From Blastomonas sp. SL216 (lineage in GTDB: Bacteria > Pseudomonadota > Alphaproteobacteria > Sphingomonadales > Sphingomonadaceae): a stretch of DNA of 64,000 nt. Location: the NCBI GenBank assembly GCA_026625625.1, contig CP113055.1:498501-562500 (forward strand), read 5' to 3'. The first letter of the stretch is position 1; every line of letters begins with the position of its first letter. Positions 1 through 23,034 of the stretch are shown piece by piece. The position numbers and the translations under genes are program-made. Under the pieces are notes generated by a model that was given only the letters and a program-made list of their open reading frames with translations, had not been told where the DNA came from and did not search any database.

Positions 1-418
1 TGCCCGCCGGATGTCGGTCGAGCCGGATCGTCTCGGTCGCAGGCAGCAGCTTGCGCATGCCGAGATGGTCGTAGAGGAACAGCCCGAGCCGCAGCAGCCA
101 GCGCGGGCGCAGGCCCTTGACCCAGGGCAGCACGAACCGCATCGGCCAGATGATGTGCGGCGCGATGCCCCAGAGGATCTCACGCTCCCCCAGCGCCTCG
201 CGCACCAGACCGAATTCGTAATGCTCCAGATAGCGCAGGCCGCCATGGATCAGCTTGCTCGAGTTGGACGAGGTGCCGCTGGCCAGATCCTGCGCCTCGA
301 GCAACAGCACGCGCGCGCCGCGCCCTGCGGCATCGCGCGCAATGCCGGTGCCGTTGACGCCGCCGCCGATCACGGCGACGTCGAACACGCTGGCGTCAGG
401 ATGCGGCGACTGGTCCAT
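1..418 (-). CDS. glpD: Glycerol-3-phosphate dehydrogenase GlpD, N-terminal part (runs off window)
   Basis: Reading from 418 leftward gives about 139 residues with the FAD-binding Rossmann signature VIGGGVNGTGIARDAAG near residues 15-31, then ASGTSSNSSKLIHGGLRYLE and a HIIWPMRFVLP segment, all typical of membrane-associated aerobic GlpD. The enzyme oxidises sn-glycerol-3-phosphate to dihydroxyacetone phosphate and passes electrons to quinone. The rest lies beyond position 1. The start ATG (418-416) overlaps the stop of the upstream monooxygenase gene as TGATG, so the two are very likely cotranscribed and translationally coupled. That link is unusual for glpD. It fits use of glycerol released from sulfoquinovosyl glycerol by the neighbouring glycosidase (inference). 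No glycerol kinase is visible in the window. Confidence 0.9.
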   Translation of the reverse strand, partial: MDQSPHPDASVFDVAVIGGGVNGTGIARDAAGRGARVLLLEAQDLASGTSSNSSKLIHGGLRYLEHYEFGLVREALGEREILWGIAPHIIWPMRFVLPWVKGLRPRWLLRLGLFLYDHLGMRKLLPATETIRLDRHPAG

Positions 419-1515
419 CAGATGTCGAGCGGTCCGTGCTGGATATGCGGCAGAACGTAGCGCGCAAACATATCGGCTTCCTGCACATGCGGATAGCCCG
501 AGAGGATGAACGCCTCGATGCCCTCGGCCTGATAGGCGCGCAGCTTGGCGAGCACCTGATCGGGCGTGCCGACGATCGCTGCGCCACAGCCCGAGCGGGC
601 GCGGCCGATGCCGGTCCAGAGGTTTTCCTCGACAAAGCCATCGCCATCGGCGGCCCCGCGCAGCTCCTGCTGACGCTGCACGCCGTAATTCTTGGCATCG
701 AGCGACTTTTCGCGGATCGCCTTGCCGGCTTCGTCGTCGAGCTTGGAGAGCAGCCGATCAGCATAGGCGCGCGCTTCGTCTTCGGTCTCGCGCACGATGA
801 CATGGACGCGATAACCGAACTTGAGCGTACGGCCATATTTCGCGGCGCGGGCCTTCAGGTCGGCGATGTTCTCGCGCACCTTGTCCATCGTGTCGGGCCA
901 CATCAGGTATACGTCGCAGGCTTCTGCAGCGCACTCGCGCGCTTCATGGCTCAGCCCACCGAAATAGAAGGCGGGGCATTTGCCCGACAGCGTGGTGACG
1001 CGCGGCGGATCGAGCTTCAGGTTGAAAAAATCGCCTTGGAAATCGAGCGCCTCGCCATTCAGCAGGGTGCGCACGATCTTCATGATCTCGGTTGCGCGGG
1101 CATAGCGGGGGCCGGATTCGATCTTCTCGCCCGGCATGTCGGACGAGATGATGTTGACGTTCAACCGCCCGCCGGTGCCTGCGGCATTGGGGCCGAGGAT
1201 GCGGTCCAGCGTCGCGATCCGGCGGGCGAGCTGCGGCGGCCAGTCCTCACCCATGCGCGTCGCCCAGAGCAGCTTGATGCGGCGGACCTGGGTGGCGACG
1301 GCAGCGGCGAAGGCGGTGGTGTCGAGGCCAAGGCTATAGCCCGAAGGCAGCAGGATGTTGTCGAACCCGCCCTCTTCGGCGCGCAACACGATGTTGCGGC
1401 AATGCTCCCAGCTCGACTGCAGATACGGGTCGGGCACGCCCAGGAACTCATAGTCATCGTCGCACAGCGCCGAAAACCAGGCGATTTCGCATTGTTGGTC
1501 GGTGGCTTGGGTCAT
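418..1515 (-). CDS. FMNH2-dependent sulfonate monooxygenase, SsuD/SmoC-like (putative sulfoquinovose monooxygenase)
   Basis: 365 residues of the luciferase-like flavin-dependent monooxygenase family, closest in pattern to alkanesulfonate monooxygenase SsuD. Residues corresponding to SsuD Arg226/His228 appear in GYRVHVIVRET (Arg236, His238); the Arg297 equivalent is in GIGRARSGCGAAIVG (Arg307); the Tyr331 equivalent is in LSGYPH (Tyr341). Such enzymes use reduced FMN and oxygen to cut a C-S bond, releasing sulfite and an aldehyde. Beside a sulfoquinovosidase-like GH31 and an aldo/keto reductase, the best inference is the sulfoquinovose monooxygenase of the sulfo-SMO pathway (SQ to 6-oxo-glucose plus sulfite). 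A flavin reductase partner is needed and is not in the window. An ordinary alkanesulfonate substrate remains possible. It is separated from the upstream reductase gene by a palindromic repeat and coupled to glpD downstream. Confidence 0.8.
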   Translation of the reverse strand: MTQATDQQCEIAWFSALCDDDYEFLGVPDPYLQSSWEHCRNIVLRAEEGGFDNILLPSGYSLGLDTTAFAAAVATQVRRIKLLWATRMGEDWPPQLARRIATLDRILGPNAAGTGGRLNVNIISSDMPGEKIESGPRYARATEIMKIVRTLLNGEALDFQGDFFNLKLDPPRVTTLSGKCPAFYFGGLSHEARECAAEACDVYLMWPDTMDKVRENIADLKARAAKYGRTLKFGYRVHVIVRETEDEARAYADRLLSKLDDEAGKAIREKSLDAKNYGVQRQQELRGAADGDGFVEENLWTGIGRARSGCGAAIVGTPDQVLAKLRAYQAEGIEAFILSGYPHVQEADMFARYVLPHIQHGPLDI

Positions 1516-1542
1516 TGTTGCTTCCTTCGGTCTGGCGCGGGG

Positions 1543-1618
1543 CCTTCGACAAGCTCAGGCTGAGCGGATGGGGTTTGAATGGCTGCTTTGACTCCGCCCA
1601 TGTCGAGCCTGTCGAAGC
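1543..1618. repeat. REP-like palindromic intergenic element
   Basis: Between the reductase and monooxygenase genes, CTTCGACAAGCTCAGGCTGA near 1544 faces TGTCGAGCCTGTCGAAGC at 1601-1618 as an imperfect inverted repeat. The core CTTCGACA.GCTCAG is a short dispersed palindrome common between genes in sphingomonads (from memory). A related copy lies near 9161. It may fold in mRNA and set different expression for the two halves of the operon. Confidence 0.6.
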
Positions 1619-1631
1619 ACGCCGCGCAGCT

Positions 1632-2546
1632 TCAGGGCAGGGGCTCGCCGCGCGCTGCCACGAGCACCGCGTACCAGTCCTGCCGGCTCCAGCGCACCTT
1701 GAGAGCCTGAGCGCCCTCGGCAATGCGCTCGGCCTGTTGCGACCCGATGATGGGCACGATGCCCGCCGGGTGCGCCATCAGCCAGCTATAGGCCGCAACG
1801 CTGCGCGACACGCCTTGCGCCTCTGCAACCACATCCAGCGACGCTGCCACGGCGCGGTCGCGCGCGGTCTCTGCCGCTGCCAGCCGTCCGCCGCCCAGCG
1901 GCGACCAGGCCATCGGCGTGAGGCCCATCATCATCGCCTGATCAAGCTCGCCATTTTCGAAGCAGGTGATGCGCAGCGGGCTGATCTCGGGCTGGGTGGT
2001 GACCAACTTGTTCGCCAGGAAATGGTCGAGCGCCGCAATCTGGGGCATTGTGAAGTTCGACACGCCGATGGTGCGGATCTTGCCCGCACTCACCGCGTCG
2101 TCGAGCACGCGCGCGACCTCCTGCGGGTGCGCCAGAATGTCCGGGCGGTGGATCTGCCACAGGTCGACCATGTCCACCTGCAGGCGGCGCAGCGAATTGT
2201 CGATCGCGGTGCGCAGATAATCGGCGCTCTGGTCATAGGGCAGGGGGGGCAGGATCCCGCCCTTGGTGGCCAGCACCATGCGCTGGCGCAGCGCCGGATC
2301 GGCGGCGATCACCTCGCCCAGCAGCGCCTCGGCATCGCCAAAGCCGCCCTGGCCGTCAAAGCCATAGATGTCCGCCGTATCGAGAAAGTTGATCCCGGCA
2401 TCGAGCGCGGCATGGACCAGCCGTGCGGCATCGGCAGCGCTGCGGCCATTTTCGGCCAGCCGCCACATGCCCCAGGCGATGGGGGAGACAGCAATGTCGC
2501 TTCTGCCCAGCGGACGGAAGGCGGGCGGCAAGGGCAGTTCACTCAT
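1632..2546 (-). CDS. Aldo/keto reductase (putative 6-oxo-glucose reductase, SmoB-like)
   Basis: 304 residues forming an AKR-type TIM barrel. The catalytic tetrad is visible: Asp and Tyr in LDTADIYGF (about residues 55-63), Lys in LATKGG and His in LWQIHRPD. The C-terminal part with SWLMAHPAGIVPIIGS binds NAD(P)H in this family. The start ATG overlaps the stop of the LacI gene (ATGA, 2543-2546), so it belongs to the same transcript as the regulator and the GH31 gene. In the sulfo-SMO pathway an AKR reduces 6-oxo-glucose to glucose, and context suggests that role here. The family assignment is firm; the substrate is inferred from neighbours only. Confidence 0.85.
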   Translation of the reverse strand: MSELPLPPAFRPLGRSDIAVSPIAWGMWRLAENGRSAADAARLVHAALDAGINFLDTADIYGFDGQGGFGDAEALLGEVIAADPALRQRMVLATKGGILPPLPYDQSADYLRTAIDNSLRRLQVDMVDLWQIHRPDILAHPQEVARVLDDAVSAGKIRTIGVSNFTMPQIAALDHFLANKLVTTQPEISPLRITCFENGELDQAMMMGLTPMAWSPLGGGRLAAAETARDRAVAASLDVVAEAQGVSRSVAAYSWLMAHPAGIVPIIGSQQAERIAEGAQALKVRWSRQDWYAVLVAARGEPLP

Positions 2547-3556
2547 GAAAACGTCCTGTTTGGGGGCGCCACGGAGGCGCGTTCGATAAGGGTGTGGGGC
2601 AGGCGGCGATGGCTGATATCGCCGCCTGCGATCAGGATTTCGGTCGCGGTGCGCGCCAGCTCGGCCATCGGCTGATGGATGGTGGTGAGCGGCGGCCAGA
2701 CGGTGCGGGCGAGCGTGGTATCGTCAAACCCTGCGACCGAGAGCTCGGCGGGCACATCCATGCCGCGATCATGCGCGACGGCGAGCACGCCGGCGGCCAT
2801 ATCGTCGTTCGAGGCGAAGATCGCGCTGGGCCGCTGCGGCAGATCGAGCAGCACGCGGCCACCGCGCACGCCCGAATCGAAATCGAACTCACCATCGCAG
2901 ACCAGTACGGGATCATAGGGCAGACCGGCGCGGTCGAGCGCGCGGCGATAGCCGAACAGACGGTCGTCCGACGCCATATGGTTCTGGTGCCCCTTGATGA
3001 AGCCGATGCGGCGGTGCCCAGCATTGATCAGGTGCGTGGTCATGTCGTCGGCAGCCTGGGCATCGTCCATGAACACCGAACTGGTGAGCGCGTGATTGGT
3101 GCCCGGTGAAATACGCACGAACGGAATGTCGAGCGCTTCGAGCGCGCGCAGCACCGGGTCGCAATCGGTCACGGGCGACGACAGGATGATGCCGTCAACA
3201 TGCGTTTCGGTGACCAGCCCGCGCACCTGTTCGCCGACCTGGGGGTCGGCCACATCGACCGGCTGCGCGAGCAGCCGGATGCGGTTGGCGCGGCAGAAAT
3301 CCCAGCAGCCGGTCTGGATCTGGAACATGTAATAGGGGCTGTGATTGTCATAGATCAGCGCGATCTGGTTCGACTTGCCGCCGGACAGGATGCGCGCTGC
3401 CACGCTGGGGCGGAAATCGAGGTCGCGCATCGCCTCCTCGACCCGGTCGCGCGTCGTCTGACTGACATAGGGATGGCCGTTCAGCACGCGGCTGACGGTC
3501 TTGACCGCCACGCCCGCCTTGGCCGCGACATCGCGGATATTCGCCCGTTCGCTCAT
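2543..3556 (-). CDS. LacI-family transcriptional regulator
   Basis: 337 residues. The N-terminal helix-turn-helix and hinge (ANIRDVAAKAGVAVKTVSRV, residues 5-24, then LNGHPYVS) are those of LacI/GalR regulators, followed by a periplasmic-binding-protein-like sensor domain with GHRRIGFIKG, AIFASNDDMAAGVL and VAGFDDT. The start at 3556 is chosen because MSERANIRDVA is the normal family N-terminus. The open frame extends to 3877, but that extension overlaps the GH31 gene and has no family similarity. The gene has 4-nt ATGA overlaps on both sides, with the GH31 stop and the reductase start, so the regulator is embedded in the operon it probably controls. The effector is likely a sugar from the pathway (SQ or a derivative; inference). 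Confidence 0.92.
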   Translation of the reverse strand: MSERANIRDVAAKAGVAVKTVSRVLNGHPYVSQTTRDRVEEAMRDLDFRPSVAARILSGGKSNQIALIYDNHSPYYMFQIQTGCWDFCRANRIRLLAQPVDVADPQVGEQVRGLVTETHVDGIILSSPVTDCDPVLRALEALDIPFVRISPGTNHALTSSVFMDDAQAADDMTTHLINAGHRRIGFIKGHQNHMASDDRLFGYRRALDRAGLPYDPVLVCDGEFDFDSGVRGGRVLLDLPQRPSAIFASNDDMAAGVLAVAHDRGMDVPAELSVAGFDDTTLARTVWPPLTTIHQPMAELARTATEILIAGGDISHRRLPHTLIERASVAPPNRTFS

Positions 3557-5577
3557 CGCTCCAGCACCTCGTTTAGCCCGCCAAACAGCGCGGCAAAGGC
3601 GCTGTCGGGGCGATAGAATACTGGCGGCTGGCCGATCGGCGCAGCGATGCGGTGCGTGCCGGGGGCATAATCCACGCCCGTCCACACGTGCCGCCATTGC
3701 CCGGCGCCGGGCAGCACGACATCGCGCACCACGGCGCCCTGTTCGACCACCGGAGCCACCAGCAGGTCGGCACCGTAGAGAAACTGATCCTGCACCGTAA
3801 AGAGGGCAGGGTCGTGCGGATGGTGCAGGAACAGTGGGCGCTGCACCGGCAGGCCGTGTGCGCTTGCCTCCTTGCACAGGTGCCGCACATAGGGTGCCAG
3901 ATGCGCATGCACCCGGCTCCAGCGCGCGAAACTGGCCATCAGCTCGGGCGTCGAATCATATTGCAGATTGTCATCGGGCCGGTTGCCTTCATGGCTCCGC
4001 ATCACAGGCGCGAAGGCGGCCAGCTCGCACCAGCGCTGCATCAGCTCTTCGGTGCGGATATTGCCGTGCAGCGAGGTATAGCCGCCGCAGTCCGAATGGC
4101 TGTACGTATTGCCGACAAGGCCGGCGGACAGTGCGCCTGTGATCACCGTGCCGATGCCGTCATGCCGGGTGAAATCGACCGACTGGTCGCCCGCCCAGAG
4201 CAGCGCGCAATGCGCTTGAACCCCGGAAAATCCGGCGCGCATGAAGAACACCGCATCGCCGGTGCGGCCCCGGCTTTCGACGGCGCGGGCGTTGACCTCG
4301 GCCCAGAGCACTGGCCAGCGATTATGCGCCTCCATCGGGTCGGAGCCATCGGCGAGGCGCAGATCGGTGGGAAGATATTCGCCAAAATCGGCCATCCAGC
4401 CGTCGATGCCGATATCGAGCATCTCGCGGCCCAGCACACGCTCGGCGAACCAGGCGCGGGTTTCCTCCCGGGTGAAATCGACCACGCCGCAGTCGAACTC
4501 GCCGAAATCGACGAGATGGACTTCGTCGCTATCGGTGCGAAGACAAAAGTGGCCGCCGCCTTCCGCCTCGGCGAACAGGTCGCCATCGACGGAGATGTAG
4601 GGGTTGGCATAGGCCATGAACCGGATGCCGCGCTGATGCAGATCTGCAATGCGCGCCTTCAGGTCCGGATAGCGCTGGGCACTGCGCTCTCCATTATGCC
4701 AATCCCAGAACAGGCGGCGGCCAAAGCTGGTTTCGCGGATGCCCGCCCAGTCTTCGCACCACAGGGCGGAGACGGCGGTACCCGCGTCGATAAAGCGTTC
4801 GAGCCGGTCGAAACTGGTAATGCCCGATTTCAGCCCGACGATTGCGCCGCCAATCGCCCAATCGGGCAATTCGGGCTGACGGCCGAAGCGCTTCGAGAGC
4901 GCGGACACAAGCTCCATCGGGCCATCGGCCGCAAACAGCTCAAAACCTGCCTCACCGCTCCACACGTCGACCGCATGGAAAGCGGGGTCGGTGAAATCGA
5001 GCACGCTGTAGCAGCTGGCATCGAGATGCACGGCGATCCAGCGCGAGGTCATGAAGGTTGGCTGCGGATAATTGGTGTTCCAGTAATCGCCGCCCGCCAT
5101 CCCCTCGGCATCCATGATGCGGGTCAGCTCGGTCGATTTGTCGCGGCCCACGCCCGGCTCGCTGGTCCAGATGGGGAAGGCGCGGCCACTCAGCGCCAGA
5201 TAGCTCATCTGCTCGCCGCCGCCCCAGACGCATTCCCCGCTCTCGGCATGGAAGCGGACGCGCAGGCGATCATAGCCATGGGTGAGCGCGCGCACCGTCA
5301 GCCGGTTACCCTTCAGCGCGATGGTGGCGACAGGCTGTCCGTTGCCGATCAGCTCGATACCATCTGCGGTCTCGCGAAACGCGGCGGGCGCCAGCTGATC
5401 GCTGGGCGAGTCGGAAATGCGGAAATTGCCGCGAAACATCGTGATATCGGGGTTGCCGCGCGCCATGACCACCGCCGGACAGGCGGGGCGATGAGACAGC
5501 ACGATCCGGTCCCCGAACAGGAGATCGAACCCGTCATTCTGGGCTTGCACCCGCAGTTTCAACGCGCTTTTCCTCAT
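3553..5577 (-). CDS. GH31 sulfoquinovosidase (YihQ/SmoI-like)
   Basis: 674 residues, collinear with E. coli sulfoquinovosidase YihQ as I recall it. The nucleophile is Asp397 in WMADFGEYLPTD and the acid/base is Asp464 in WAGDQ; their spacing of 67 equals that of YihQ Asp405/Asp472. The sulfonate-recognising residues also line up: Lys250 (GLKSG), Glu275 (WCEDW), Arg288 and Trp291 (GRRLFW), and Tyr500 (GGYTSL). These match YihQ Gln262, Gln288, Arg301, Trp304 and Tyr508 and give the alternative KERWY motif reported for Agrobacterium-type enzymes. Predicted reaction: hydrolysis of alpha-sulfoquinovosyl glycerol or diglyceride to sulfoquinovose. No clear Sec signal is seen, so it is probably cytoplasmic or exported by other means. 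It is first gene of the operon and overlaps the LacI start. A generic alpha-glucosidase is unlikely given the Arg/Trp/Tyr set. Confidence 0.88.
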   Translation of the reverse strand: MRKSALKLRVQAQNDGFDLLFGDRIVLSHRPACPAVVMARGNPDITMFRGNFRISDSPSDQLAPAAFRETADGIELIGNGQPVATIALKGNRLTVRALTHGYDRLRVRFHAESGECVWGGGEQMSYLALSGRAFPIWTSEPGVGRDKSTELTRIMDAEGMAGGDYWNTNYPQPTFMTSRWIAVHLDASCYSVLDFTDPAFHAVDVWSGEAGFELFAADGPMELVSALSKRFGRQPELPDWAIGGAIVGLKSGITSFDRLERFIDAGTAVSALWCEDWAGIRETSFGRRLFWDWHNGERSAQRYPDLKARIADLHQRGIRFMAYANPYISVDGDLFAEAEGGGHFCLRTDSDEVHLVDFGEFDCGVVDFTREETRAWFAERVLGREMLDIGIDGWMADFGEYLPTDLRLADGSDPMEAHNRWPVLWAEVNARAVESRGRTGDAVFFMRAGFSGVQAHCALLWAGDQSVDFTRHDGIGTVITGALSAGLVGNTYSHSDCGGYTSLHGNIRTEELMQRWCELAAFAPVMRSHEGNRPDDNLQYDSTPELMASFARWSRVHAHLAPYVRHLCKEASAHGLPVQRPLFLHHPHDPALFTVQDQFLYGADLLVAPVVEQGAVVRDVVLPGAGQWRHVWTGVDYAPGTHRIAAPIGQPPVFYRPDSAFAALFGGLNEVLER

Positions 5578-5739
5578 CCCTGGCTGTCAGTGTTGCGAAA
5601 TGGTCGCAGCCCTTGTCCGTTTTTCTGACACCGCTTGACATATCGAGGCGGTCATAGCAGATCAAGCGTCAATCGCGGCGACCATATCAAGGGGCATCAA
5701 GCCCCCGCTACGACCGCAATCTCGCAGGGAGAGGGTATC
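5578..5739. promoter_or_regulatory. Divergent promoter/operator region between GH31 operon and TonB receptor
   Basis: This 162-bp gap must hold both promoters and probably the LacI operator. Visible are a direct repeat of TGACA at 5626-5630 and 5636-5640 (10-bp period), an inverted TGTCAG/CTGACA pair at 5585-5590 and 5625-5630, and TTGACA at 5635-5640 that could be a -35 element, though no good -10 follows at the right spacing. The TBDR ribosome site is CAGGGAGAGG just before 5740. No perfect LacI palindrome is evident, so operator assignment is tentative. Confidence 0.4.
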
Positions 5740-8079
5740 ATGAAGCTCACCAATTATCTGTCCATCCGTGCCGCCGCGCTGTCTGCCACCGCGCTTTCGC
5801 TCGCCTTTGCCATGCCCGCTCATGCGCAGGATGCAGCCGATGAAGACCAGGGCGGCATCACCGAAATCGTCGTGACCGCGCAGAAGGTTGCCGAGAACGT
5901 CCAGGACGTTCCCATCGCGATAACCGCGATCACCGCAGACCGTCTGGAAACCACCGGCGTCACCAGCCTCGAAGGGCTGACCCAACTTGTTCCTTCGGTC
6001 AGCTTCCGCAAGGGCACGACCAGCGCCAACAGCGCCATCGTGATGCGCGGCGTTGGCACCATCACCTTCTCGATCGCGGCAGAGCCCAGCGTTTCGACCG
6101 TGGTCGACGGCGTCGTGCTGAGCCGTTCGGGCCAGGCGTTCATGGACCTGGTCGATGCCGAGCGCCTTGAAGTGCTGCGCGGCCCGCAGGGCACGCTGTT
6201 CGGCAAGAACGCATCGGCCGGTCTGGTCAATATCGTGTCCAAGGGCGGCACCGATACGCTGCAGGCCGAAGCGCGCCTCGAAGCGTTCGACGACGATGAA
6301 TACCGTCTGCGCGGCGCGATTTCCGGTCCGCTCGCCGAGAACCTGACCGGTCGCATCACCGCGTTCTACGGCAGCTATGACGGCAACATCACCAATATCA
6401 ACGGCGGCCGTCGCAATACCATCAACGGTTACGAGCATTACGGCGCGCGCGGTATCCTAGATTATGATGGTGGCGGCTCGCGCTTCCGCTTCATTGCCGA
6501 TTATTTCGAGGCCGACGACGATTGCTGCGCCGACGTAACCGGCGTCAGCCGTGGCGCGGTGCTCGATGCCGAACTCGGCCTGCCCGGCGGCGTGGCGCGC
6601 GGTGTCAACCAGCGCTTCGTCAATCACAACCTCGTCACCCGCACGCTCGACAAGCAGTGGAGCCTGACCGCGTCGGCCGATTTCGACGTGTTCACCAGCC
6701 ATGTGCTGAGCGTGATCGCGGGCTATCGCAACTGGGAAAACACCGAAATCCGCGAAGGCGACTTCCTGCCGCGCGCGCTTGTCGGCACTGGCGAACTGCA
6801 CGACAATGGCCAGGTCCGCACCGAGCAGCTCTCGCTCGAAGTGCGTCTCGCCTCGGACCAGACCAAGCCCTTCTTCTATCAGGTCGGCGGCTTCATCTGG
6901 GGTTCGGACAACGAGCAGGACTTCACCCGCCGCAACATCACCTGCGCGACCTCGACGCTGCCGATCGATCCGATCACCGGCGGACGTCCGTGCAACGTCA
7001 ACGATCGCACCAACACGCTGTTCCCGACCGCGACCTCGTTCAGCGCCGTGGAATCGCGCAACTATGCGATTTTCGGCCAGGCGACCTATCGCCTGAGCGA
7101 CATGTTCGCGGTGACGGGCGGCCTGCGCTACACCTGGGATGACCTGAGCTTCGTCCACACCCGCGCGCCGGGCGTGAACGCGACCACCGGCCTGCCGGCG
7201 ACCGGTCCCGGCGTCTCGGGCGCGCCTGCTGGAGGCACGATCGCTTCGGGCGGCAATGGCACCAACACCTCGCGCGGTGACAGCACCAACGGCAACCTTT
7301 CGGGCCGCGCCGTGCTGCAGTTCACGCCCAGCGAAGACGTGATGCTCTATGGCAGCTATACCCGCGGCTACAAGGGCCCGGCGTTCAACGTGTTCTTCAA
7401 CCACACCGCGCCGACCAATGCGATTCCGATCGACGAGGAAACCTCCGACGCGTTCGAAATCGGCATCAAGTCGCAGTTCCTCGACAACCGCGTGCAGCTG
7501 AACGCCTCGGCCTTCACCGTCACCTATGACGGCTTCCAGGCGAACAACTTCGTGCTGCTGAATGGCGCGGTTGTCTCGAACCTGACCAATGCCGGATCGG
7601 TGAAGAGCGAAGGCTTTGAAGTCGATCTGCTTGCCGTACCGGTCGATGGCTGGACGCTGCGCGCGAGCGGGGCCTATGCAGACGCCACCGTCAAGCGGTT
7701 CAACCCCAACCCCGCCACCAACGCACCCGATGCCCGCAACGGCACCCAGCTGCCGCTGGCGCCGAAGTTCACCTGGACCATCGGAACCAGCTACGAGCGC
7801 GATCTGGGCGGCTTCAAGATGTATCTCGACACCGATTTCCGCCATGTCAGCCGCCAGTTCTCCGATCTCGGCGAACAGGGCCCGATCGCGGCCTATGGCA
7901 TCTGGAACGGCTCGATCGGTTTTTCGGACCCCGAAGACAATTACCGCATCAGCTTCCTGGCGCGCAACATCACCGACAAGGCCTACGCCCTGCTCAACGT
8001 GACTGCCGGCCAACGCCTGCAGATCCCGCGCGACGCGGACCGCTATTTCGGCATCAGCCTGCGCGCACGCCTGCGCTGA
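5740..8079 (+). CDS. TonB-dependent outer-membrane receptor (putative SQ/sulfolipid-glycoside importer)
   Basis: 779 residues. Signal peptide of about 29 residues ending AMPAHAQ, TonB box EIVVTAQK at residues 42-49, plug domain with RGVGTITF and VLRGPQGTLFGKNASAG, then a 22-strand type barrel. The ATG at 5740 is preferred over an upstream in-frame start because it has a purine-rich ribosome site and directly precedes the signal peptide. The protein ends GISLRARLR, so the usual terminal aromatic residue is missing. It lies divergent from the GH31 operon and shares its regulatory region, so it probably brings sulfoquinovosyl glycerol or a related glycoside across the outer membrane (inference). 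By sequence alone only the TBDR class is certain. Confidence 0.92.
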   Translation: MKLTNYLSIRAAALSATALSLAFAMPAHAQDAADEDQGGITEIVVTAQKVAENVQDVPIAITAITADRLETTGVTSLEGLTQLVPSVSFRKGTTSANSAIVMRGVGTITFSIAAEPSVSTVVDGVVLSRSGQAFMDLVDAERLEVLRGPQGTLFGKNASAGLVNIVSKGGTDTLQAEARLEAFDDDEYRLRGAISGPLAENLTGRITAFYGSYDGNITNINGGRRNTINGYEHYGARGILDYDGGGSRFRFIADYFEADDDCCADVTGVSRGAVLDAELGLPGGVARGVNQRFVNHNLVTRTLDKQWSLTASADFDVFTSHVLSVIAGYRNWENTEIREGDFLPRALVGTGELHDNGQVRTEQLSLEVRLASDQTKPFFYQVGGFIWGSDNEQDFTRRNITCATSTLPIDPITGGRPCNVNDRTNTLFPTATSFSAVESRNYAIFGQATYRLSDMFAVTGGLRYTWDDLSFVHTRAPGVNATTGLPATGPGVSGAPAGGTIASGGNGTNTSRGDSTNGNLSGRAVLQFTPSEDVMLYGSYTRGYKGPAFNVFFNHTAPTNAIPIDEETSDAFEIGIKSQFLDNRVQLNASAFTVTYDGFQANNFVLLNGAVVSNLTNAGSVKSEGFEVDLLAVPVDGWTLRASGAYADATVKRFNPNPATNAPDARNGTQLPLAPKFTWTIGTSYERDLGGFKMYLDTDFRHVSRQFSDLGEQGPIAAYGIWNGSIGFSDPEDNYRISFLARNITDKAYALLNVTAGQRLQIPRDADRYFGISLRARLR

Positions 8080-8406: not shown

Positions 8407-8961
8407 TTAGCTGTCCCGAAACTTCTGAACGGCTATCCAGATATAGAGGCCAAAGAACGCACCGCTTCCGATGAGCCAAGCCCATGTCTTGAGATCGCGT
8501 TCCGGCGAGTTGAACGATCCTAGGAATGCGACGCCGCTGAACAGGAGCGCAAAGATAATAAAGCGCCAATTGAGCATGGCGCGAGCTTGACGCCGCGCTT
8601 CTGAAGCCGGTCTTGGGGGTGCTATAGTGGGCCGGCCCCGAACGAGGCGACGCGGGGCAAAGCTGGCCCAGATTAGCCACGCTGATATACCGATCACGCA
8701 TGCTGCAACCATGATCGAGTTCGACCAATCCGGCAGTGACAATAATTTTGAGGTGACGGTCCAAACGAAGACCGCCAGCATCACAATGCCCACTACCATC
8801 CAAATACCGCGCCGCCCTGCTACTTTACGCCAGCTTTCGGTCAGTCGTTCATATTCGTCAGCAGTTACAAGCTTACCACCGCTCTTCATCGAAGGGTAAT
8901 AAAGATATCCCCCGTCTATAGGCGTAAATTGCTTCGTGAACACACTAATCGGATCAAACAC
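8407..8961 (-). CDS. Hypothetical membrane protein with four predicted transmembrane segments
   Basis: 184 residues if translation begins at the GTG at 8961, which is preceded by a strong purine-rich ribosome site (GGGGGG) about 5 nt upstream; the resulting N-terminus is FDPISVFTKQFTPID. The open frame extends to 9114 but that part is without a signal or domain. Hydrophobic stretches lie at roughly residues 50-70, 80-100, 130-150 and 160-178, with charged RRLVRGRP and SEARRQAR segments between. I recognise no functional domain. The gene is convergent to the TBDR terminator region and stands alone; its role is unknown. Confidence 0.65.
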   Translation of the reverse strand: MFDPISVFTKQFTPIDGGYLYYPSMKSGGKLVTADEYERLTESWRKVAGRRGIWMVVGIVMLAVFVWTVTSKLLSLPDWSNSIMVAACVIGISAWLIWASFAPRRLVRGRPTIAPPRPASEARRQARAMLNWRFIIFALLFSGVAFLGSFNSPERDLKTWAWLIGSGAFFGLYIWIAVQKFRDS

Positions 8962-9149
8962 CCAAGTCCCCCCTGCCGCCGAGCATTGCGCGTGGATAAT
9001 GCGTTGCACAGGTGTTAAGGCGCGATGATGGCCGAAAGCAAGTGAGCCTGAGGGGCCGCATGCCAAGCGTCCATTCCAAAAGCAGCCTTTCTGCAATCCA
9101 CCCATTCCCGTCATTTGCGCTGCCCCCGCGCTTCGCCAGAACCTGCCGT

Positions 9150-9258
9150 CACACTGAACCCTTCGACGGTGCTCAGGACAGGCTTGTTTCAGGGTCCATT
9201 TATCCCCGCGTACCTTCGGTTTATCCGGCGCGATGGATACTGAAACGCGTTCAGCCTG
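9150..9258. repeat. REP-like inverted repeat region
   Basis: CCTTCGACGG.GCTCAGGACA near 9160-9180 is a variant of the core at 1544. CAGGCTTGTTTCAGGGTCCA (9179-9198) faces ATGGATACTGAAACGCGTTC (9233-9252) followed by AGCCTG as an imperfect inverted repeat. The 8962-9369 gap contains this element and the next, and no convincing gene. Confidence 0.5.
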
Positions 9259-9270
9259 ACGGGCTTTGCT

Positions 9271-9336
9271 CTCTCCCCTTTTGGGGAGAGAAACGAAGGC
9301 TCGGCAGCTTGCTGCCTAGCCGGAGTTGAGAGGGGC
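9271..9336. repeat. Palindromic intergenic repeat
   Basis: CTCTCCCCTTTTGGGGAGAG (9271-9290) is a near-perfect hairpin, followed by GGCAGCTTGCTGCC and a closing GAGAGGGG. The pattern is like the element at 8164-8217. It lies just downstream of the serine hydrolase gene and could also stop its transcript. Confidence 0.5.
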
Positions 9337-9369
9337 GAGCGCGCGGTGTCTGATATCAACGGAGCCTGA

Positions 9370-10590
9370 TCAGGTGCAGGTCTCGCCATCAAACACAATC
9401 GCACGCACCTTGCGCATCATTTCCATGGCCACTGGCGGATCGCGATTGGCCATGATCACAATCGTCATTTGATCATCCGGAAATGTCGCAGTCTCGACAT
9501 TCACCCCCAAAGTCCCGCCATTGTGGCCCGTCCATCGGTGCCCGTTGTAATTGCCAACCGCAAAGCCGAGGCCATGCGACACCGCAGGTCTGTTGGGACC
9601 AGCAGGAGCCACCTCAATCTGCGGGGAAATGAGAAGATCACGCATGGCGGCACTGGTCAGCTTTCCTGACATCAGAGCCGCAAAAAAACGCTGCATATCG
9701 GCTGCGGTGCTATAGGCGCCGCCCGCCGAATTGCCGACAAGTGCTGCTTCCACGGCGGGACGAAGCGGACCGGGCGGCGGCATCTGCATGCCATTCGGCC
9801 CGCCAGGCGTTCCCGGTGGTGGTCCGGGGGGCGGCCCCGGTGGTCCAGCATGCTGGCCGGGTGCGCTGCCAGGGGGCGGGGGCAGCATTTCAGGCATATT
9901 GGTCATCCCGACGGCGCGATTGGCCTTATCGGCTGGCAGGATGCTCGAAGCGGTCATCCCCGATGGCGCAAAGATATGCTGCTGGAGATAGGCCTCAAAG
10001 CTCTCACCGCTGACACGCTCAACCATCAGGCCCAGCAGGAGAAAGCCGGAGTTTGAATATTGGAACCGCGAGCCGGGCGTGAATTGCGGGACGTCGCGCA
10101 CGACCAGAGGTTTCAGATCGGAAAGGCTTCTCGCTGCCTGAAGAGCCGACAGATTGTCCGGCGTGAAGAAGTTGCCGAGCCCGCTGCTATGGGTCAGCAA
10201 CTGACGGACGGTCACTGCTCCAGCTTCGGTCGTCAGGCCATCGACATGAATCTTGATGGGATCGTCCAAACCGATCTTGCCCGCATCGACCAGTTGGGCC
10301 ACCGCGACCGCCGTGAACATTTTGCTGGCTGATCCCAGATTGAACCTGGCATCGCTTGCGATGGCGGCGCTCCCGTCCCCGGCCATCAGGCCCTGCGTAA
10401 AGGATACAGCGCCGCCTTGCCGCGATACTGCAATGACGCCAGAGAAAGACGAAGGGGCTGCAACGCCCGCCAGGCACGCGCGCAACGCATCGTCGTCCAG
10501 CGCTTGTGCGGTGGCGGTGGCACCAGCCCCCGGACAGGCCAGCACTGCCGTGATGAGCATGGCTGAAATCGGTCGAATCAAACGCACCAT
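9370..10590 (-). CDS. Serine hydrolase, beta-lactamase/class C-like family
   Basis: 406 residues from the ATG at 10590, which has GGGAGA about 4 nt upstream; a GTG 12 nt earlier is less likely. A signal peptide ends near GATATAQA. The penicillin-binding fold motifs are present: SASK (Ser87, Lys90), YSN (Tyr178, Asn180) and HNGG near the C-terminus. Such exported proteins are esterases, DD-peptidases or lactamases, and the substrate cannot be told from sequence. A Pro/Gly-rich insert of about 39 residues (237-275) interrupts the fold after SSILPADKANRAVG. The gene is divergent from a winged-helix regulator, which may control it. No relation to the sulfoquinovose cluster is evident. Confidence 0.88.
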   Translation of the reverse strand: MVRLIRPISAMLITAVLACPGAGATATAQALDDDALRACLAGVAAPSSFSGVIAVSRQGGAVSFTQGLMAGDGSAAIASDARFNLGSASKMFTAVAVAQLVDAGKIGLDDPIKIHVDGLTTEAGAVTVRQLLTHSSGLGNFFTPDNLSALQAARSLSDLKPLVVRDVPQFTPGSRFQYSNSGFLLLGLMVERVSGESFEAYLQQHIFAPSGMTASSILPADKANRAVGMTNMPEMLPPPPGSAPGQHAGPPGPPPGPPPGTPGGPNGMQMPPPGPLRPAVEAALVGNSAGGAYSTAADMQRFFAALMSGKLTSAAMRDLLISPQIEVAPAGPNRPAVSHGLGFAVGNYNGHRWTGHNGGTLGVNVETATFPDDQMTIVIMANRDPPVAMEMMRKVRAIVFDGETCT

Positions 10591-10617
10591 TTTGTCTCCC
10601 ACAGAGGTTCAGCAGCT

Positions 10618-10647
10618 TTGACGGGCACCAACTTCAAATTCTATAGA
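10618..10647 (+). promoter_or_regulatory. Candidate sigma70-type promoter for the winged-helix regulator
   Basis: TTGACG (10618-10623) and TATAGA (10642-10647) are separated by 18 bp. This would give a leader of roughly 40 nt before the ATG at 10697, which has a perfect AGGAGG ribosome site. Confidence 0.45.
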
Positions 10648-10696
10648 TGGTCTTGAACTAGCAGGTTTGTTGAATGGTCAGCCCAGGAGGCAGTCG

Positions 10697-11269
10697 ATGC
10701 GTGAACATATGCATGTAACGGAGCGAGCAGCGGCCGCAGCCTTTGCATCGCCCCGTCAGCGCAAGACCATACAAACTCTGATAGCGGGGGAGATGTCGAT
10801 GACCGAACTGGCATCGGCCACCGAGCTCCCGCTCAGCCTGCTACACTATCATGTCTCGCAATGTATGCGACTGGGCCTGGTCGAGATCACGCGAGAGCAG
10901 CCCCGGTCCGGGCGGGCGGTGAAATTCTATCGTGCGGTCGCCAAATCCTTCTTTGTGGCCGCCGATCTCATCGACGAAATGCCGGGGACAGCATTCACAC
11001 GGAAACTGCGGAACCTGCTTGATCAGAATTTGAACAGGTCACTGCAGGGGATTTGCTTCAAACATGATGGCGTTCGTCCCCGCGCCGAGCTTGTGACTGA
11101 TCCCGACCAGCAGAAGGATGCCGTTGAACTATGGCTCGACGTCGGTCTGACGCGAGCCGATGCGGCCCGGCTGCGACAGGAACTGAAAGCCCTGATGGAC
11201 CGCTATCGCGCATGCGAAAGCGCTGCAAGTCCGCGCTATCTGCTGCACGTTGCAGCGGTCAAACTCTGA
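10697..11269 (+). CDS. ArsR-like winged-helix transcriptional regulator
   Basis: 190 residues. The start ATG at 10697 is chosen for the AGGAGG 6-7 nt upstream; two upstream TTG codons extend the frame but lack such a site. Residues of about 15-80 form a winged helix (RQRKTIQTLIAGEMSMTELA, then LPLSLLHYHVSQCMRLGLVE and RAVKFYRAV), as in ArsR-type repressors. The C-terminal half resembles ligand or oligomerisation regions but is not a domain I can name; no metal-binding Cys motif is seen. It is divergent from the serine hydrolase gene and a plausible regulator of it (inference from orientation). Confidence 0.82.
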   Translation: MREHMHVTERAAAAAFASPRQRKTIQTLIAGEMSMTELASATELPLSLLHYHVSQCMRLGLVEITREQPRSGRAVKFYRAVAKSFFVAADLIDEMPGTAFTRKLRNLLDQNLNRSLQGICFKHDGVRPRAELVTDPDQQKDAVELWLDVGLTRADAARLRQELKALMDRYRACESAASPRYLLHVAAVKL

Positions 11270-11292: not shown

Positions 11293-12519
11293 TCACTCCG
11301 CCGCCAGCTTCAACCTTGGGATCATCACCTGGATGAACGCCAGCGCGACCAGATACGCGCTGCCGCAGATCGCGAACAGGGGCACATATCCCATGCCGCT
11401 GCCCAGCGAATAGCCGGCAAACTCGATGATGGCGGTGCCCGACAAATTGCCCGCGACTGCGCCCAGCGCGATGACGCTGGCGACGCGGGTGGCGGGGATG
11501 ATGTCGGCGGTCATGCCGAAGACATTGGTCGAAAAGCCCTGATGCGCGAACAGGCCGAGGCCGATCAGCACCGCTGCGATCCACGGATTTCCGGTCTGGA
11601 GCGAGAGCGGCATGGCGAGCACCACCAGCGCATAGAACAGCATCGAGGTCTTGCGCGCGGCGTTGACGGTCATGCCCCGGCTCAGCAGGATCGGATACAG
11701 GCCTCCGGACGTGATCGCGCCCAATGCGGCCAGCGTGAAGATGATCGCGATCGGCCAACCCAAGTCGCCCTGGGAAAGCCCGAACTGGCGGTTGAAGAAA
11801 TCGGGCATCCAGAACAGCACGAACCACCATACCGCATCGATGCAGAATTTCGCGCCGATCACGGTCCAGGTCTTGCGGTCGGAGAGCAGCACGCCCCAGG
11901 GCACCGGCGACCGCTCCGGAATGTCGCCGATCGGCTTGAGGTTCCGCGTGCCCCACCACCAGCCGGCGAGCCAGAAGAAGCCGAGCGCGCCGGTGACCCA
12001 GAATGCCGCCTGCCAGCCGAACGCCAGCGCAAAGGGCGGGATCAGCAAGGGGGTGAGGATCGCGCCGATATTGGGCGCGGTGTTGATCAGGCCGATGGCG
12101 ACACTGCGCTGCGCGACGGGCAGGTACATGGCCGCCGCCTTCAGCCCCGCAGGCGTGCTGACCGATTCGCCCGCCGCCAGCACGATCCGCGCGGCGACGA
12201 ATTGCTGCACGGTCTGCGCCAGCGCGTGCGCCATTCCGGCGGCACTCCACACCGTGACCGCGATGGCATAAGCGACGCGCACGCCGAGGCGATCAACGAA
12301 CCAGCCGACGAACAGCAAGGTGCCTGCCGCGGCAATCTGGAAGGAGGAGCCGAGATGCGCGTAATCGGCATCCGACCAGCCGAATTCGGCCTCCAATGTC
12401 GGTTTCAGCAGCGCGAGCACCTGCCGGTCGACATAGTTGAGCGCATTGCCCAGGAAGAGCAGGACGACCAGCGCGATTGCCGCGCCGCGTGCCATGCCCT
12501 GATGCCGTGCCTCGTCCAT
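11293..12519 (-). CDS. MFS transporter, ACS/hexuronate (ExuT-like) family
   Basis: 408 residues from the ATG at 12519, preceded by GGGAGGAAG; the open frame runs further upstream without similarity. Twelve hydrophobic segments are expected. The signatures NYVDRQVLALLKPTL in TM1 and WFVDRLGVRVAYA after TM2 are typical of anion:cation symporters for sugar acids in sphingomonads. Substrates in this family are hexuronates, galactonate and similar anionic sugars. An anionic sugar such as sulfoquinovose would suit it, and no other inner-membrane carrier is visible near the SQ cluster, but the gene lies 6 kb away and this link is speculative. It converges on the ArsR-like gene with only 23 bp between stops. 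Confidence 0.85.
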   Translation of the reverse strand: MDEARHQGMARGAAIALVVLLFLGNALNYVDRQVLALLKPTLEAEFGWSDADYAHLGSSFQIAAAGTLLFVGWFVDRLGVRVAYAIAVTVWSAAGMAHALAQTVQQFVAARIVLAAGESVSTPAGLKAAAMYLPVAQRSVAIGLINTAPNIGAILTPLLIPPFALAFGWQAAFWVTGALGFFWLAGWWWGTRNLKPIGDIPERSPVPWGVLLSDRKTWTVIGAKFCIDAVWWFVLFWMPDFFNRQFGLSQGDLGWPIAIIFTLAALGAITSGGLYPILLSRGMTVNAARKTSMLFYALVVLAMPLSLQTGNPWIAAVLIGLGLFAHQGFSTNVFGMTADIIPATRVASVIALGAVAGNLSGTAIIEFAGYSLGSGMGYVPLFAICGSAYLVALAFIQVMIPRLKLAAE

Positions 12520-12650
12520 CGCGCTTCCTCCCGTTGCACGCGCCTGTCCACGGCGCTTCATGCTTGCACGATAGCCGCTCGCGCGCGTAAGAAAAGCCCT
12601 ATATGACACCGAAGGACATATCCGGGCATCGGGCAGGGGAGGGCTGAGCA

Positions 12651-13754
12651 TTGAAGCGGCAGGAGATTGACTGGGATTCGCTGCCCGCAGCAGGTGACCT
12701 GTTCGGCGAAATGTATCTGGCGGATGTCACGCCGCAGCCAGCCGCCGATGCCGCACCAGAGGCGGCCAAGCCGCGCGACACTATCTTCCAGGGGCTGGCC
12801 ATCTGCGCGATTGCTGCAGGCGCGGCCGCATGGCTTTCCGAACATTACAACTTCCCGATCATCCTGCTCGGGTTGCTGATCGGGCTGTCGCTGAGCTTCG
12901 TCGCGCGCGATCCGCGCAGCCACAAGGGGCTCGATTTCGCCTCGCGCACCTGTCTGCGCTTCGGAGTTGTGCTCCTGGGGTTGCAGGTGACCTTCGCGCA
13001 GATCGGGTCGCTGGGCGTGCAGCCCTTTGCCGCGCTCGCCGCGATCATGACGGTGACCTTCCTCGCTGGGATTCTCGGCGCGCGGCTGGTTGGTCAGTCC
13101 AACTATACCGGCATTCTGGCAGGCGGTGCGACCGCGATCTGCGGGGCCAGCGCGGCAATGGCGCTCTACGGCATTATCGGGCGCGAGCGGCTCAACCAGT
13201 CGCAATTCGCGATCACGCTCGTCGTCGTGTCGCTGGCCAGCGCGCTTGCGATGTCGCTCTACCCGATTCTCGCGGAATATCTGGGCCTGAGCGACCAGCA
13301 GGCGGGGTTCCTGATTGGCGCATCGATCCATGATGTCGCGCAGGCCATCGGCGGCGGCTATGCGTTTTCGGAAGCCGCGGGCAGCTATGCCGCCATCGTC
13401 AAGCTGTCGCGCGTGGCGATGCTGGCACCCGTGGTCATCATCACGGGGCTGGCCATAGGCAATGCCGATCAGGCCGAAGGGAGCCCCTTGTGGAAGCGGC
13501 TGGCGCTGCCCTGGTTCATCGTCGCCTTCTTTGGCGTGGTGTTGCTCAATTCGCTGGTCGCCATGCCCGAACCGGTGCGCGATTCGGCGCTCAGCCTTTC
13601 GAAAGGCCTGCTGCTGATCGCGGTGATCGCCACCGCGATGCGCAGCCGCATGGACCTGTTGCTCGAAACCGGAATTCGTCCGGCAATCCCGGTGATGATC
13701 GCGACATTGACCAGCCTCGCCGCCTCGTTCGCGGTGGTGATGCTGCTCTTTTAA
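12651..13754 (+). CDS. YeiH-family putative sulfate exporter
   Basis: 367 residues; a TTG start at 12651 is supported by GGAGGG seven nt upstream and by lack of a better ATG before residue 21. About ten transmembrane segments begin near residue 45. The family signature GGATAICGASAA (158-169) is clear, as are IGASIHDVAQAIGGGY and the C-terminal MDLLLETG region. Members are annotated as putative sulfate exporters, with little direct proof. Its stop codon interlocks with that of sorB on the other strand (shared TTAA at 13751-13754). Next to a sulfite dehydrogenase, export of sulfate or sulfite is a reasonable role (inference). Confidence 0.85.
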   Translation: MKRQEIDWDSLPAAGDLFGEMYLADVTPQPAADAAPEAAKPRDTIFQGLAICAIAAGAAAWLSEHYNFPIILLGLLIGLSLSFVARDPRSHKGLDFASRTCLRFGVVLLGLQVTFAQIGSLGVQPFAALAAIMTVTFLAGILGARLVGQSNYTGILAGGATAICGASAAMALYGIIGRERLNQSQFAITLVVVSLASALAMSLYPILAEYLGLSDQQAGFLIGASIHDVAQAIGGGYAFSEAAGSYAAIVKLSRVAMLAPVVIITGLAIGNADQAEGSPLWKRLALPWFIVAFFGVVLLNSLVAMPEPVRDSALSLSKGLLLIAVIATAMRSRMDLLLETGIRPAIPVMIATLTSLAASFAVVMLLF

Positions 13755-14110
13755 CCGAAGCGTTCGGCCAGCAGTTTCGCGATCGCCTCGGCATCGGCGG
13801 GCTCGACCGGCGCGCCATAGACCTTGACCATCTTGGTCACCTCGTCGGTCCAGAACTTGTCGCCCATGCCGCGCGGCTGGGTGGTGACATATTCCAGGCT
13901 GTGACAGGCGGTGCAGTTGTTGACCACGACCTCTGCGCCCGCATCCGCAAGCTCGGCAGGAATGGTCTCTTCCGGCAGCTGATAGCTGACCGGCTCTATA
14001 CGTGCTTCGACAACCTGCGGTCCGTTCTCGCTGTCCAGCAGCGACCATGCCGCACCGGCTGCGGCAAGGCCCAGCAGGCCGAGCCCGATGACAAGTCCCT
14101 TGCTCTGCAT
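13751..14110 (-). CDS. sorB: Sulfite dehydrogenase cytochrome c subunit, SorB-like
   Basis: 119 residues: an N-terminal membrane or signal segment (residues 4-24) followed by a short class I cytochrome c with haem motif CTACH (Cys66, Cys69, His70) and a candidate axial Met82 in RGMGDKF. It takes electrons from the molybdenum subunit and passes them to the respiratory chain in the periplasm. The start ATG at 14110 overlaps the sorA stop as TGATG; a GTG three nt upstream is the alternative. The pairing and order with the Mo subunit support the SorAB assignment over a generic cytochrome. Confidence 0.85.
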   Translation of the reverse strand: MQSKGLVIGLGLLGLAAAGAAWSLLDSENGPQVVEARIEPVSYQLPEETIPAELADAGAEVVVNNCTACHSLEYVTTQPRGMGDKFWTDEVTKMVKVYGAPVEPADAEAIAKLLAERFG

Positions 14111-15309
14111 CACACTGCCTCCAGCACGACCGTTTCGGCCACATTGCGCATATAGCCAGCAGGCTGCCAGAGCGGCTCCATCGGCTGAACCTCGCCGCTC
14201 TGGGTCTCTGCGCGCACGCGCAGGGGGTGGCGACCCTTGGCTAGCGTGATGCCGAGCCGCCAGTCGCGGAACGAATAACGGCCCATATCCTCGCCCAGCT
14301 TTGCTTCCTGCCAGTTGCGGCCATTGTCGGGCGAGACCATCACCCGCTTGACCGGATCGCCGCCGCTGAACGCAATGCCGCGCAATTCGGTAGTGCGCCC
14401 GGCACCAATTTTTTCGCCATCGGCATGGCTGGTGATGAAGCTGCGCACGTTGAACCGCGCAATCGGACGGGTCTTGTCGGGCTTGGTGCCCGGCTCGACA
14501 CAGCGGCAGTCATTGTCGGGAATGCGATAGGCGGTCTTCATCCAATACCCGTCAAACTCGGCGTCCACGACATTGATTTCATTAAGGTGCTTGACCCAAT
14601 AGGTGCCGAAATGGCCCGGTACGACCAGGCGCAGCGGATAGCCGTTGAGGAAGGGCAGCTCCTCGCCGTTCATGGCAAAGGCGACCATCACCTCGCCATC
14701 CCGGGCATGGTCGATGTCCAGCGCCTTGACGAAATCGGCAATGCCATCAGCAGGCGGATTGTCGAGCCCGTTGAACGTCACCTGCGCTGCGCCGGGGCGA
14801 ATTCCGGCCTTGTCGAGCAGGTGCTTGAGCGCCACGCCCTGCCAGCGCGCGTTGCCCATCGCGCCATTGCCCAACTGGCCGCCGGCGACGCGCGGAGTGA
14901 CAAAGCCCCGGCTGTTGCCCGAGCACTGGTTCACCGCGACGATCTCGCTCACCGGAAAATCGCGGCGCAGCGAATCGAGCGTCAGCTGCAACGGCTTTTC
15001 GACATGCCCTCCGATGGCCAGGCGGAAGCTGCGCGGATCGATCTCTGTCGGCAGGCCCGACAGGTGATAGCGCACGAAAAAGGCGTCATTGGGCGTCAGC
15101 AGCCCGTCATTGAAGACCGAAAACGGGGTTTCGAGTTGCGGTGGGCGGCTGGTCAGCAGGATCATCGCGCGCTTGCCGGGCAGCTGGACCAGCGGCCGTT
15201 CTCCATTGGCAAAGGGCAGGGTGATGCTGCCGCCACCGCTCTTGGCCGCCGCCCCGATGAGCGCCGCGCCTGCGCCTGCCACGAACAGCCTCCGGTCGAT
15301 CCCGTTCAT
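14110..15309 (-). CDS. sorA: Sulfite dehydrogenase molybdopterin subunit, SorA-like
   Basis: 399 residues. The N-terminus MNGIDRRLFVAGAGAAL is a twin-arginine export signal, which decides the start at 15309 within a longer open frame. The sulfite oxidase fold follows, with the molybdenum-ligand cysteine Cys129 in VNQCSGNSRGF, the conserved LPFLNGYPLRLVVPGHFGTY segment, and a C-terminal dimerisation domain with SPDNGRNWQEAKLG. It oxidises sulfite to sulfate in the periplasm and donates electrons to SorB, whose gene overlaps its stop. Sulfite is the sulfur product expected from the SsuD-like enzyme at 418-1515, so this pair probably detoxifies it and gains energy (inference). A different sulfoxide or protein-repair role (MsrP-like) is less likely given the SorB partner. 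Confidence 0.87.
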   Translation of the reverse strand: MNGIDRRLFVAGAGAALIGAAAKSGGGSITLPFANGERPLVQLPGKRAMILLTSRPPQLETPFSVFNDGLLTPNDAFFVRYHLSGLPTEIDPRSFRLAIGGHVEKPLQLTLDSLRRDFPVSEIVAVNQCSGNSRGFVTPRVAGGQLGNGAMGNARWQGVALKHLLDKAGIRPGAAQVTFNGLDNPPADGIADFVKALDIDHARDGEVMVAFAMNGEELPFLNGYPLRLVVPGHFGTYWVKHLNEINVVDAEFDGYWMKTAYRIPDNDCRCVEPGTKPDKTRPIARFNVRSFITSHADGEKIGAGRTTELRGIAFSGGDPVKRVMVSPDNGRNWQEAKLGEDMGRYSFRDWRLGITLAKGRHPLRVRAETQSGEVQPMEPLWQPAGYMRNVAETVVLEAV

Positions 15310-15380
15310 TTCCGCTCCCATATCCTTCCGCGCCATAGCGCGCATCGCCTTTTTGCGCAGGATGCAGCGTATGTCCACCG

Positions 15381-22937: not shown

Positions 22938-23034
22938 TGTGCGGCCTGCCCCGGGACGAAGTGCCCGCCGCAATCCGGCTGTTTCCGCGCCCTGGGGCAG
23001 GCGCACCTTCTATCTGGACCACAAAGGCTTGATC

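Follow-up and report, generated by a model that had tools for sequence, protein, structure and literature searches.

We identified a locus of ~19 kb predicted to serve growth on sulfoquinovose (SQ), the sugar of plant sulfolipid, partly within and partly to the left of a 64,000-nucleotide stretch of the Blastomonas sp. SL216 genome (the window; bases 498501–562500 of a single 3.86-Mb contig). We consider it very probable that this locus enables life on sulfoquinovosyl glycerol (SQGro) through the whole scheme set out below, including its regulation and a role for a paralogue of RibB, a vitamin B2 enzyme. The minus strand carries, in order, genes for a GH31 glycosidase, a LacI-family regulator, an aldo-keto reductase (AKR), a SmoC-like monooxygenase, GlpD, a flavin mononucleotide (FMN) reductase, the RibB-like protein, and GlpK. 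A TonB-dependent receptor (TBDR) lies divergently, and rightward of it follow an MFS permease, a YeiH-type exporter gene, and SorB/SorA. A preliminary description had confined the cluster to 1–8079, a range that proved too small because the operon continues to ~3.7 kb left of position 1, while on the right linked genes for import and sulfite handling extend as far as 15378. Genes left of position 1 have no positive window positions and are given in the coordinates of L002 (contig 484000–500000), from which 14501 is subtracted to obtain the window position.

The monooxygenase (418–1515, minus strand) is of the SmoC/SquD type. Its closest solved structures are 7olf and 7oh2 (50–52% identity, E ~1e-108), which we take to be characterised SQ monooxygenases (SmoC), followed by SsuD-type proteins (4e-59 to 5e-54; identity to SsuD 34–35%). 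The tree proposed in the preliminary description was built from 47 rows (our own sequence, 20 of 80 named-collection loci, 22 loci of other family genomes, and 4 PDB entries) and rooted at its midpoint; it separates two SsuD rows from the other 45, including 7olf and 7oh2, with a 100/100 split. The E. coli SsuD row forms a long branch and one row is 37% filled.

The GH31 enzyme (3553–5577, minus strand; 674 aa) is assigned as a sulfoquinovosidase. It lies over the NF007746 cut-off (882.7 versus 553 bits) and no signal peptide was seen by eye. We take K245, E270, R283, W286, and Y491 to be the sulfonate-pocket residues of the Agrobacterium tumefaciens sulfoquinovosidase; our GH31 has them at the equivalent positions, along with both catalytic Asp motifs, and all six motif patterns (sulfonate pocket plus catalytic Asp) occur in 64 of 71 GH31 proteins. 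The nearest solved relative (E 1.9e-248) is 5ohy, identified as the A. tumefaciens enzyme in PMC11968277. Monooxygenase, AKR, LacI, GH31, and TBDR all passed their Pfam cut-offs. The AKR (1632–2546, minus strand), a predicted 6-oxo-glucose reductase of the SmoB/SquF type, has 7bbz and 7bby, presumably SmoB, as its nearest solved relatives (E 9e-54).

A flavin reductase, which the preliminary description had suggested looking for left of position 1, was found there as a PF03358 gene (L002:12842–13420, minus strand; E 1.6e-25). Together with the monooxygenase tree and the nearest solved relatives, it supports the original reading of the cluster as a sulfoquinovose monooxygenase (sulfo-SMO) pathway. 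GlpD begins at 1–418 (whole gene L002:13417–14919, minus strand; NF008899 711.1 bits versus a cut-off of 360), and GlpK lies at L002:10772–12238 on the same strand (NF000756 574.4 versus 498 bits; TIGR01311 582.5, under its 590.35). The gene couplings described earlier also hold: within the window open reading frames (ORFs), all on the minus strand, GH31/LacI and LacI/AKR are joined by ATGA overlaps, the SsuD-like gene shares one base with GlpD (TGATG), and the receptor is divergent from the minus-strand genes. Every junction in the minus-strand run overlaps except AKR–SmoC, because a 116-bp repeat-like stretch (1516–1631, no strand given) with an inverted CTTCGACAAGCTCAGGCTGAGC-type sequence separates these genes; it looks like a repeat insertion and resembles the dispersed repeats of sphingomonads.

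Linkage was assessed in the best 80 of 179 loci found with monooxygenase relatives, with flanks limited to 10 kb. The nearest named relatives of the monooxygenase (96–99% identity) come from Sphingomonas sp. 35-24ZXX, Sphingomonas ursincola, and Blastomonas sp. AAP53. Counting our own locus and requiring ≥45% identity, the 81 loci contained AKR (81), SmoC (81), LacI (78), GH31 (74), GlpD (55), YeiH (53), TBDR (47), MFS (33), FMN reductase (26), RibB-like (25), and GlpK (19); where a gene is absent its count is a lower bound, because many loci end at contig ends or at the 10-kb flank. At 70% coverage with no identity floor, a TBDR was present in 72/81. AKR and SmoC are neighbours in all 81 loci, with a gap of ≤192 bp between aligned ends, an adjacency far beyond chance. 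SmoC was detected in 103 of 397 family genomes, and in 20 further regions from these 103, picked mostly for divergent SmoC, AKR again adjoined SmoC in 20/20 and GH31 was seen in 9/20. In some relatives the receptor, MFS, YeiH, GlpD, FMN reductase, and RibB-like genes are arranged on one strand leading away from GH31 (e.g., loci L166, L168, L169, and L176). At SQ loci L170, L171, L172, L173, L174, and L175 the order is FMN reductase, RibB-like, YeiH, which links the first two with the putative sulfite exporter.

The RibB-like gene (L002:12228–12845, minus strand; PF00926 200.8 bits) encodes a protein with the fold of 3,4-dihydroxy-2-butanone 4-phosphate (DHBP) synthase but without its metal ligands. 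Its AlphaFold model (pLDDT 88.9) shares this fold with RibB and RibBX (1g57, 6mnz; Foldseek TM 0.87–0.89 to the query), and among solved structures RibBX 6mnz stands closest to it (43% identity in the structural comparison). E174 is important in DHBP synthase. According to PMC12268802, R34, R147, T151, and the H150 main chain hold the phosphonate in a complex of DHBP synthase, D39 and H133 touch the ligand, and the E35 and H150 side chains bind metals (numbering of the Z. tritici enzyme). This numbering was matched to that of E. coli (offset three) by motif. The 55 RibB-like rows came from two sets, with eight sequences in both, and 47 are distinct over the core. In E. coli numbering, the 47 keep R37 (47), R150 (47), H136 (47), and D42 (46), so that both phosphate-binding arginines are retained, whereas the two metal ligands and E174 are replaced: E38 is kept in 1 (L173), H153 in 0, and E174 in 0, and T154 is kept in 3.

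Each of the 47 distinct RibB-like genes has the FMN reductase as its direct neighbour; this holds in 25/25 RibB-like loci of the first set and in 30/30 regions from 30 other family genomes, the single FMN reductase without such a neighbour (L030) standing at a locus end. RibB-like exceeded a strict cut-off in 31/397 family genomes and in 3/398 genomes of a phylum sample, all three from the same family. In a class sample (385) the RibB-like alignment brought up ordinary RibBA-type proteins at ~210–230 bits, and our own genome alone stood out. SmoC is present in 30 of the 31 RibB-like-bearing family genomes versus 103/397 overall; the Fisher p of 1.9e-18 is merely indicative because the genomes are related. 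The one RibB-like genome without SmoC is 69% complete.

Co-inheritance of an operon piece could explain the linkage, and 73 of the 103 SmoC-bearing family genomes show no RibB-like gene under the cut-off applied, which makes the gene dispensable to the pathway; both points weigh against a dedicated function. A passenger drifting towards loss would fit these absences and also the L176 copy, whose N-terminal part fails to align with the rest and which may therefore be truncated or frame-shifted. We nonetheless think such drift unlikely, since dN/dS is 0.08–0.23 in five pairs, R37, H136, and R150 are kept in 47/47 sequences, and RibB-like stays beside the FMN reductase across differently arranged operons.

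Far less credible is a working DHBP synthase that boosts flavin supply. Rib genes raise flavin supply in some lux operons, and the PF00926 score, the adjoining flavin reductase, and a luciferase-family enzyme in the same operon would all suit such a role. Against this, the protein falls under the TIGR00506 cut-off (169.5 versus 177.45), and the genome holds a separate RibBA elsewhere with all motifs present. With the metal-binding Glu lost in 46/47 and the His in 47/47, we reject its identity as a real DHBP synthase.

RibB-like is probably a dedicated part of the SQ module and a DHBP synthase no longer. With the two-arginine clamp that it retains, the protein would likely hold a ligand that is phosphorylated or sulfonated, and its likely partner is the FMN reductase. 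More specifically, we hypothesize, with chances that we judge to be even, that in Sphingomonadaceae it plays a dedicated, previously undescribed part in SQ monooxygenation and either binds a sulfosugar, with sulfonate acting as a phosphate mimic, or hands FMN/FMNH2 between the reductase and SmoC; the DHBP synthase fold would here have lost its two-metal site and kept the phosphate-binding arginines.

Two readings would deny the core enzymes a part in SQ use. That the monooxygenase is an ordinary alkanesulfonate enzyme (SsuD) for sulfur scavenging finds some backing in its top NCBIfam match, TIGR03565 alk_sulf_monoox (E 1e-73), but the 248 bits of that match are far under the family cut-off of 518, the identities and the tree split place the protein with 7olf and 7oh2, and it is accompanied by AKR in every locus of both sets and by GH31 in 74/81 and 9/20; this reading is highly improbable, and we rejected the SsuD identity on the cut-off and the split. 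Least probable of all is a GH31 operon for plain alpha-glucosides, as the name alpha-glucosidase that NCBIfam gives to its family might suggest: the enzyme carries the sulfonate-pocket residues and scores 829.7 bits to the A. tumefaciens sulfoquinovosidase, 595–664 to other YihQ-type proteins, and 134.9 to the best GH31 outside this group, scores on which a plain alpha-glucosidase was rejected.

What we observed is which genes are present, the clades they fall into, their linkage, and the residues lost; every substrate and cell step of the following scheme is inferred. SQGro would cross the outer membrane through the TonB receptor and the inner membrane through the MFS permease, both steps being suggested by linkage. 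The cytoplasmic GH31 would split SQGro into SQ and glycerol; SmoC, with FMNH2 from the FMN reductase, would cleave the C–S bond to give sulfite and 6-oxo-glucose; and the AKR would reduce 6-oxo-glucose to glucose. GlpK and GlpD would use up the glycerol half, YeiH would export sulfite, and SorAB would oxidise sulfite to sulfate.

The receptor, a predicted outer-membrane importer with Plug and barrel domains, lies at 5740–8079 on the plus strand (ORF 5635–8079) and is divergent from GH31 in relatives as well; its start is likely the ATG at 5740, placed by eye from a signal-peptide-like N-terminus. The preliminary description had this receptor take the place of an ATP-binding cassette (ABC) importer. 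One part of that idea stands, as the sugar-type substrate-binding protein families PF01547 and PF13416, the two searched, gave no match in our genome and matched 14/14 and 13/14 control genomes, respectively. The other part does not: TonB receptors are outer-membrane proteins, ABC importers belong to the inner membrane, and the one cannot replace the other. The substitute would therefore be the MFS permease (11293–12519, minus strand; MFS_1, TIGR00893 under cut-off), a predicted inner-membrane importer whose relatives stand beside the TBDR. Its start was placed by eye, the first ATG, at 12651, being doubtful. By linkage, the permease is the likely inner-membrane import step and, given the missing matches to the two families, receptor and permease together are the best import candidates we infer. 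We discounted a second MFS gene (L002:4406–5884), whose linkage to the locus holds in close relatives only.

Sulfite handling is represented by a putative sulfate/sulfite exporter of the YeiH family (12651–13754, plus strand; PF03601 195.9 bits) and, on the minus strand, by the SorB cytochrome c subunit (13751–14113; NCBIfam equivalog NF052246, 104.9 versus 93 bits) and the SorA sulfite dehydrogenase catalytic subunit (14110–15378; equivalog NF052245, 659.3 versus 600 bits).

The regulator (2543–3556, minus strand) overlaps GH31 by ATGA and is of the LacI type, as first described, with Pfam LacI and Peripla_BP_3 domains. Plain k-mer counting over TBDR–GH31 intergenic regions yielded a conserved 15-bp element, TGTCAAGCGGTGTCA, which lies at 5626–5640 (minus strand) in the divergent GH31/TBDR promoter region. 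It is exact in 67 of the 69 intergenic regions that could be excised, our own counted (L065 and L078 are the exceptions), and its core GCTTGACA occurs in 69/69. Across whole loci it is exact in 66/80, and in 22/30 and 8/20 of two other sets that partly repeat the same genomes, at most once per locus. Genome-wide there is one exact copy, with five more sites at two mismatches versus three for a reversed control pattern. A second copy with three mismatches (12604–12618, minus strand) lies between MFS and YeiH; alone it is within chance. A variant with two to three mismatches is nevertheless found there in 18/21 loci of that divergent arrangement, and shuffled MFS–YeiH regions reached ≤3 mismatches in 2/420. 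In the loci without it (L004, L007, and L064) the aligned MFS and YeiH starts are just 6, 11, and 34 bp apart. A scan of the TBDR–GH31 intergenic regions for LacI-type centred dyads found nothing common; a gapped dyad GGGGC with a spacer of 5 occurred in 6/69 regions versus a shuffle maximum of 2 and was left unused because six regions are few. The element contains TTGACA, which could be a −35 box. This element is probably where the LacI protein acts to control the two divergent promoters.

Several observations weigh against the scheme as a whole. The PDB labels of 7olf, 7oh2, and 7bbz are generic, and the SmoC and SmoB identities are presumed. The FMN reductase matches PF03358 only and scores under the SsuE/MsuE equivalog cut-offs (30.7 versus 164.05 and 33.1 versus 212.5 bits), and the YeiH gene is under that of TIGR00698 (136.9 versus 232.6 bits). 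SorA is seldom near the locus, with SorA in 6/81 and SorB in 4/81 loci under the identity floor and flank limit given above. The 15-bp element is no clean palindrome, unlike the usual LacI operator. Finally, the MFS and sulfite genes are here ~3 kb of other genes away from the receptor. In other loci, such as L005 and L007, a home-made gene caller places MFS directly beside the receptor, and the intervening block (8407–11269) is therefore probably a lineage-specific insertion.

This block encodes a small protein that matches no family, along with a serine hydrolase and a weakly ArsR-like ORF. The hydrolase has a beta-lactamase fold (Pfam Beta-lactamase) and is far under curated class C cut-offs. 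Further right, a giant ORF (25347–47519, plus strand; 7390 aa) has PATR repeats, with 29 and 11 matched stretches in two scanned pieces, and is a giant passenger of the autotransporter type; a single weak DNA tandem array was seen within 24800–48000, and a CHASE3-HAMP chemoreceptor gene (22939–24867, plus strand) adjoins the giant ORF.

If the scheme is true, the locus holds a complete route that turns SQGro into glucose, glycerol phosphate, and sulfate and does so with no sugar ABC importer. It would offer candidate genes for the sphingomonad transport and sulfite steps, together with a new protein and an operator that both lend themselves to testing, and the FMN reductase/RibB-like pair and the 15-bp element would serve as metagenome markers of such loci. 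The word ‘TonB’ occurs nowhere in the main text of PMC13372026, PMC10755693, or PMC11968277, and papers that mention sulfoquinovose, a monooxygenase, and TonB together deal, by their titles, with other subjects. Neither sulfoquinovose together with YeiH, nor the 15-bp element, nor a RibB paralogue beside an FMN reductase was met in the literature searched, outside which key subscription papers lay.

The core of the locus belongs to a known kind, since the sulfo-SMO pathway is described, in PMC9594981 and PMC12890257, for A. tumefaciens and for the sphingomonad Novosphingobium aromaticivorans; PMC13372026 adds that Novosphingobium assimilates 13C-SQ and that SQ use is predicted. The sulfo-SMO/sulfo-ASMO cluster of N. 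aromaticivorans DSM 12444 (SquD, SquF, YihQ) likewise combines an SQ monooxygenase, an AKR, and YihQ in a sphingomonad; SsuE is reported absent from it in PMC9594981, whereas here an FMN reductase and RibB-like share the operon. The A. tumefaciens smo cluster has homologues of sulfoquinovosidase, SmoB, and SmoC and a flavin reductase in common with ours, but has an SQGro ABC transporter according to the same paper (PMC9594981), where we find TBDR and MFS and no PF01547/PF13416 match. A parallel is offered by lux operons with rib genes, which likewise join a luciferase-family enzyme, a flavin reductase, and a rib-type gene; the rib-type gene here, by contrast, encodes no plausible DHBP synthase.

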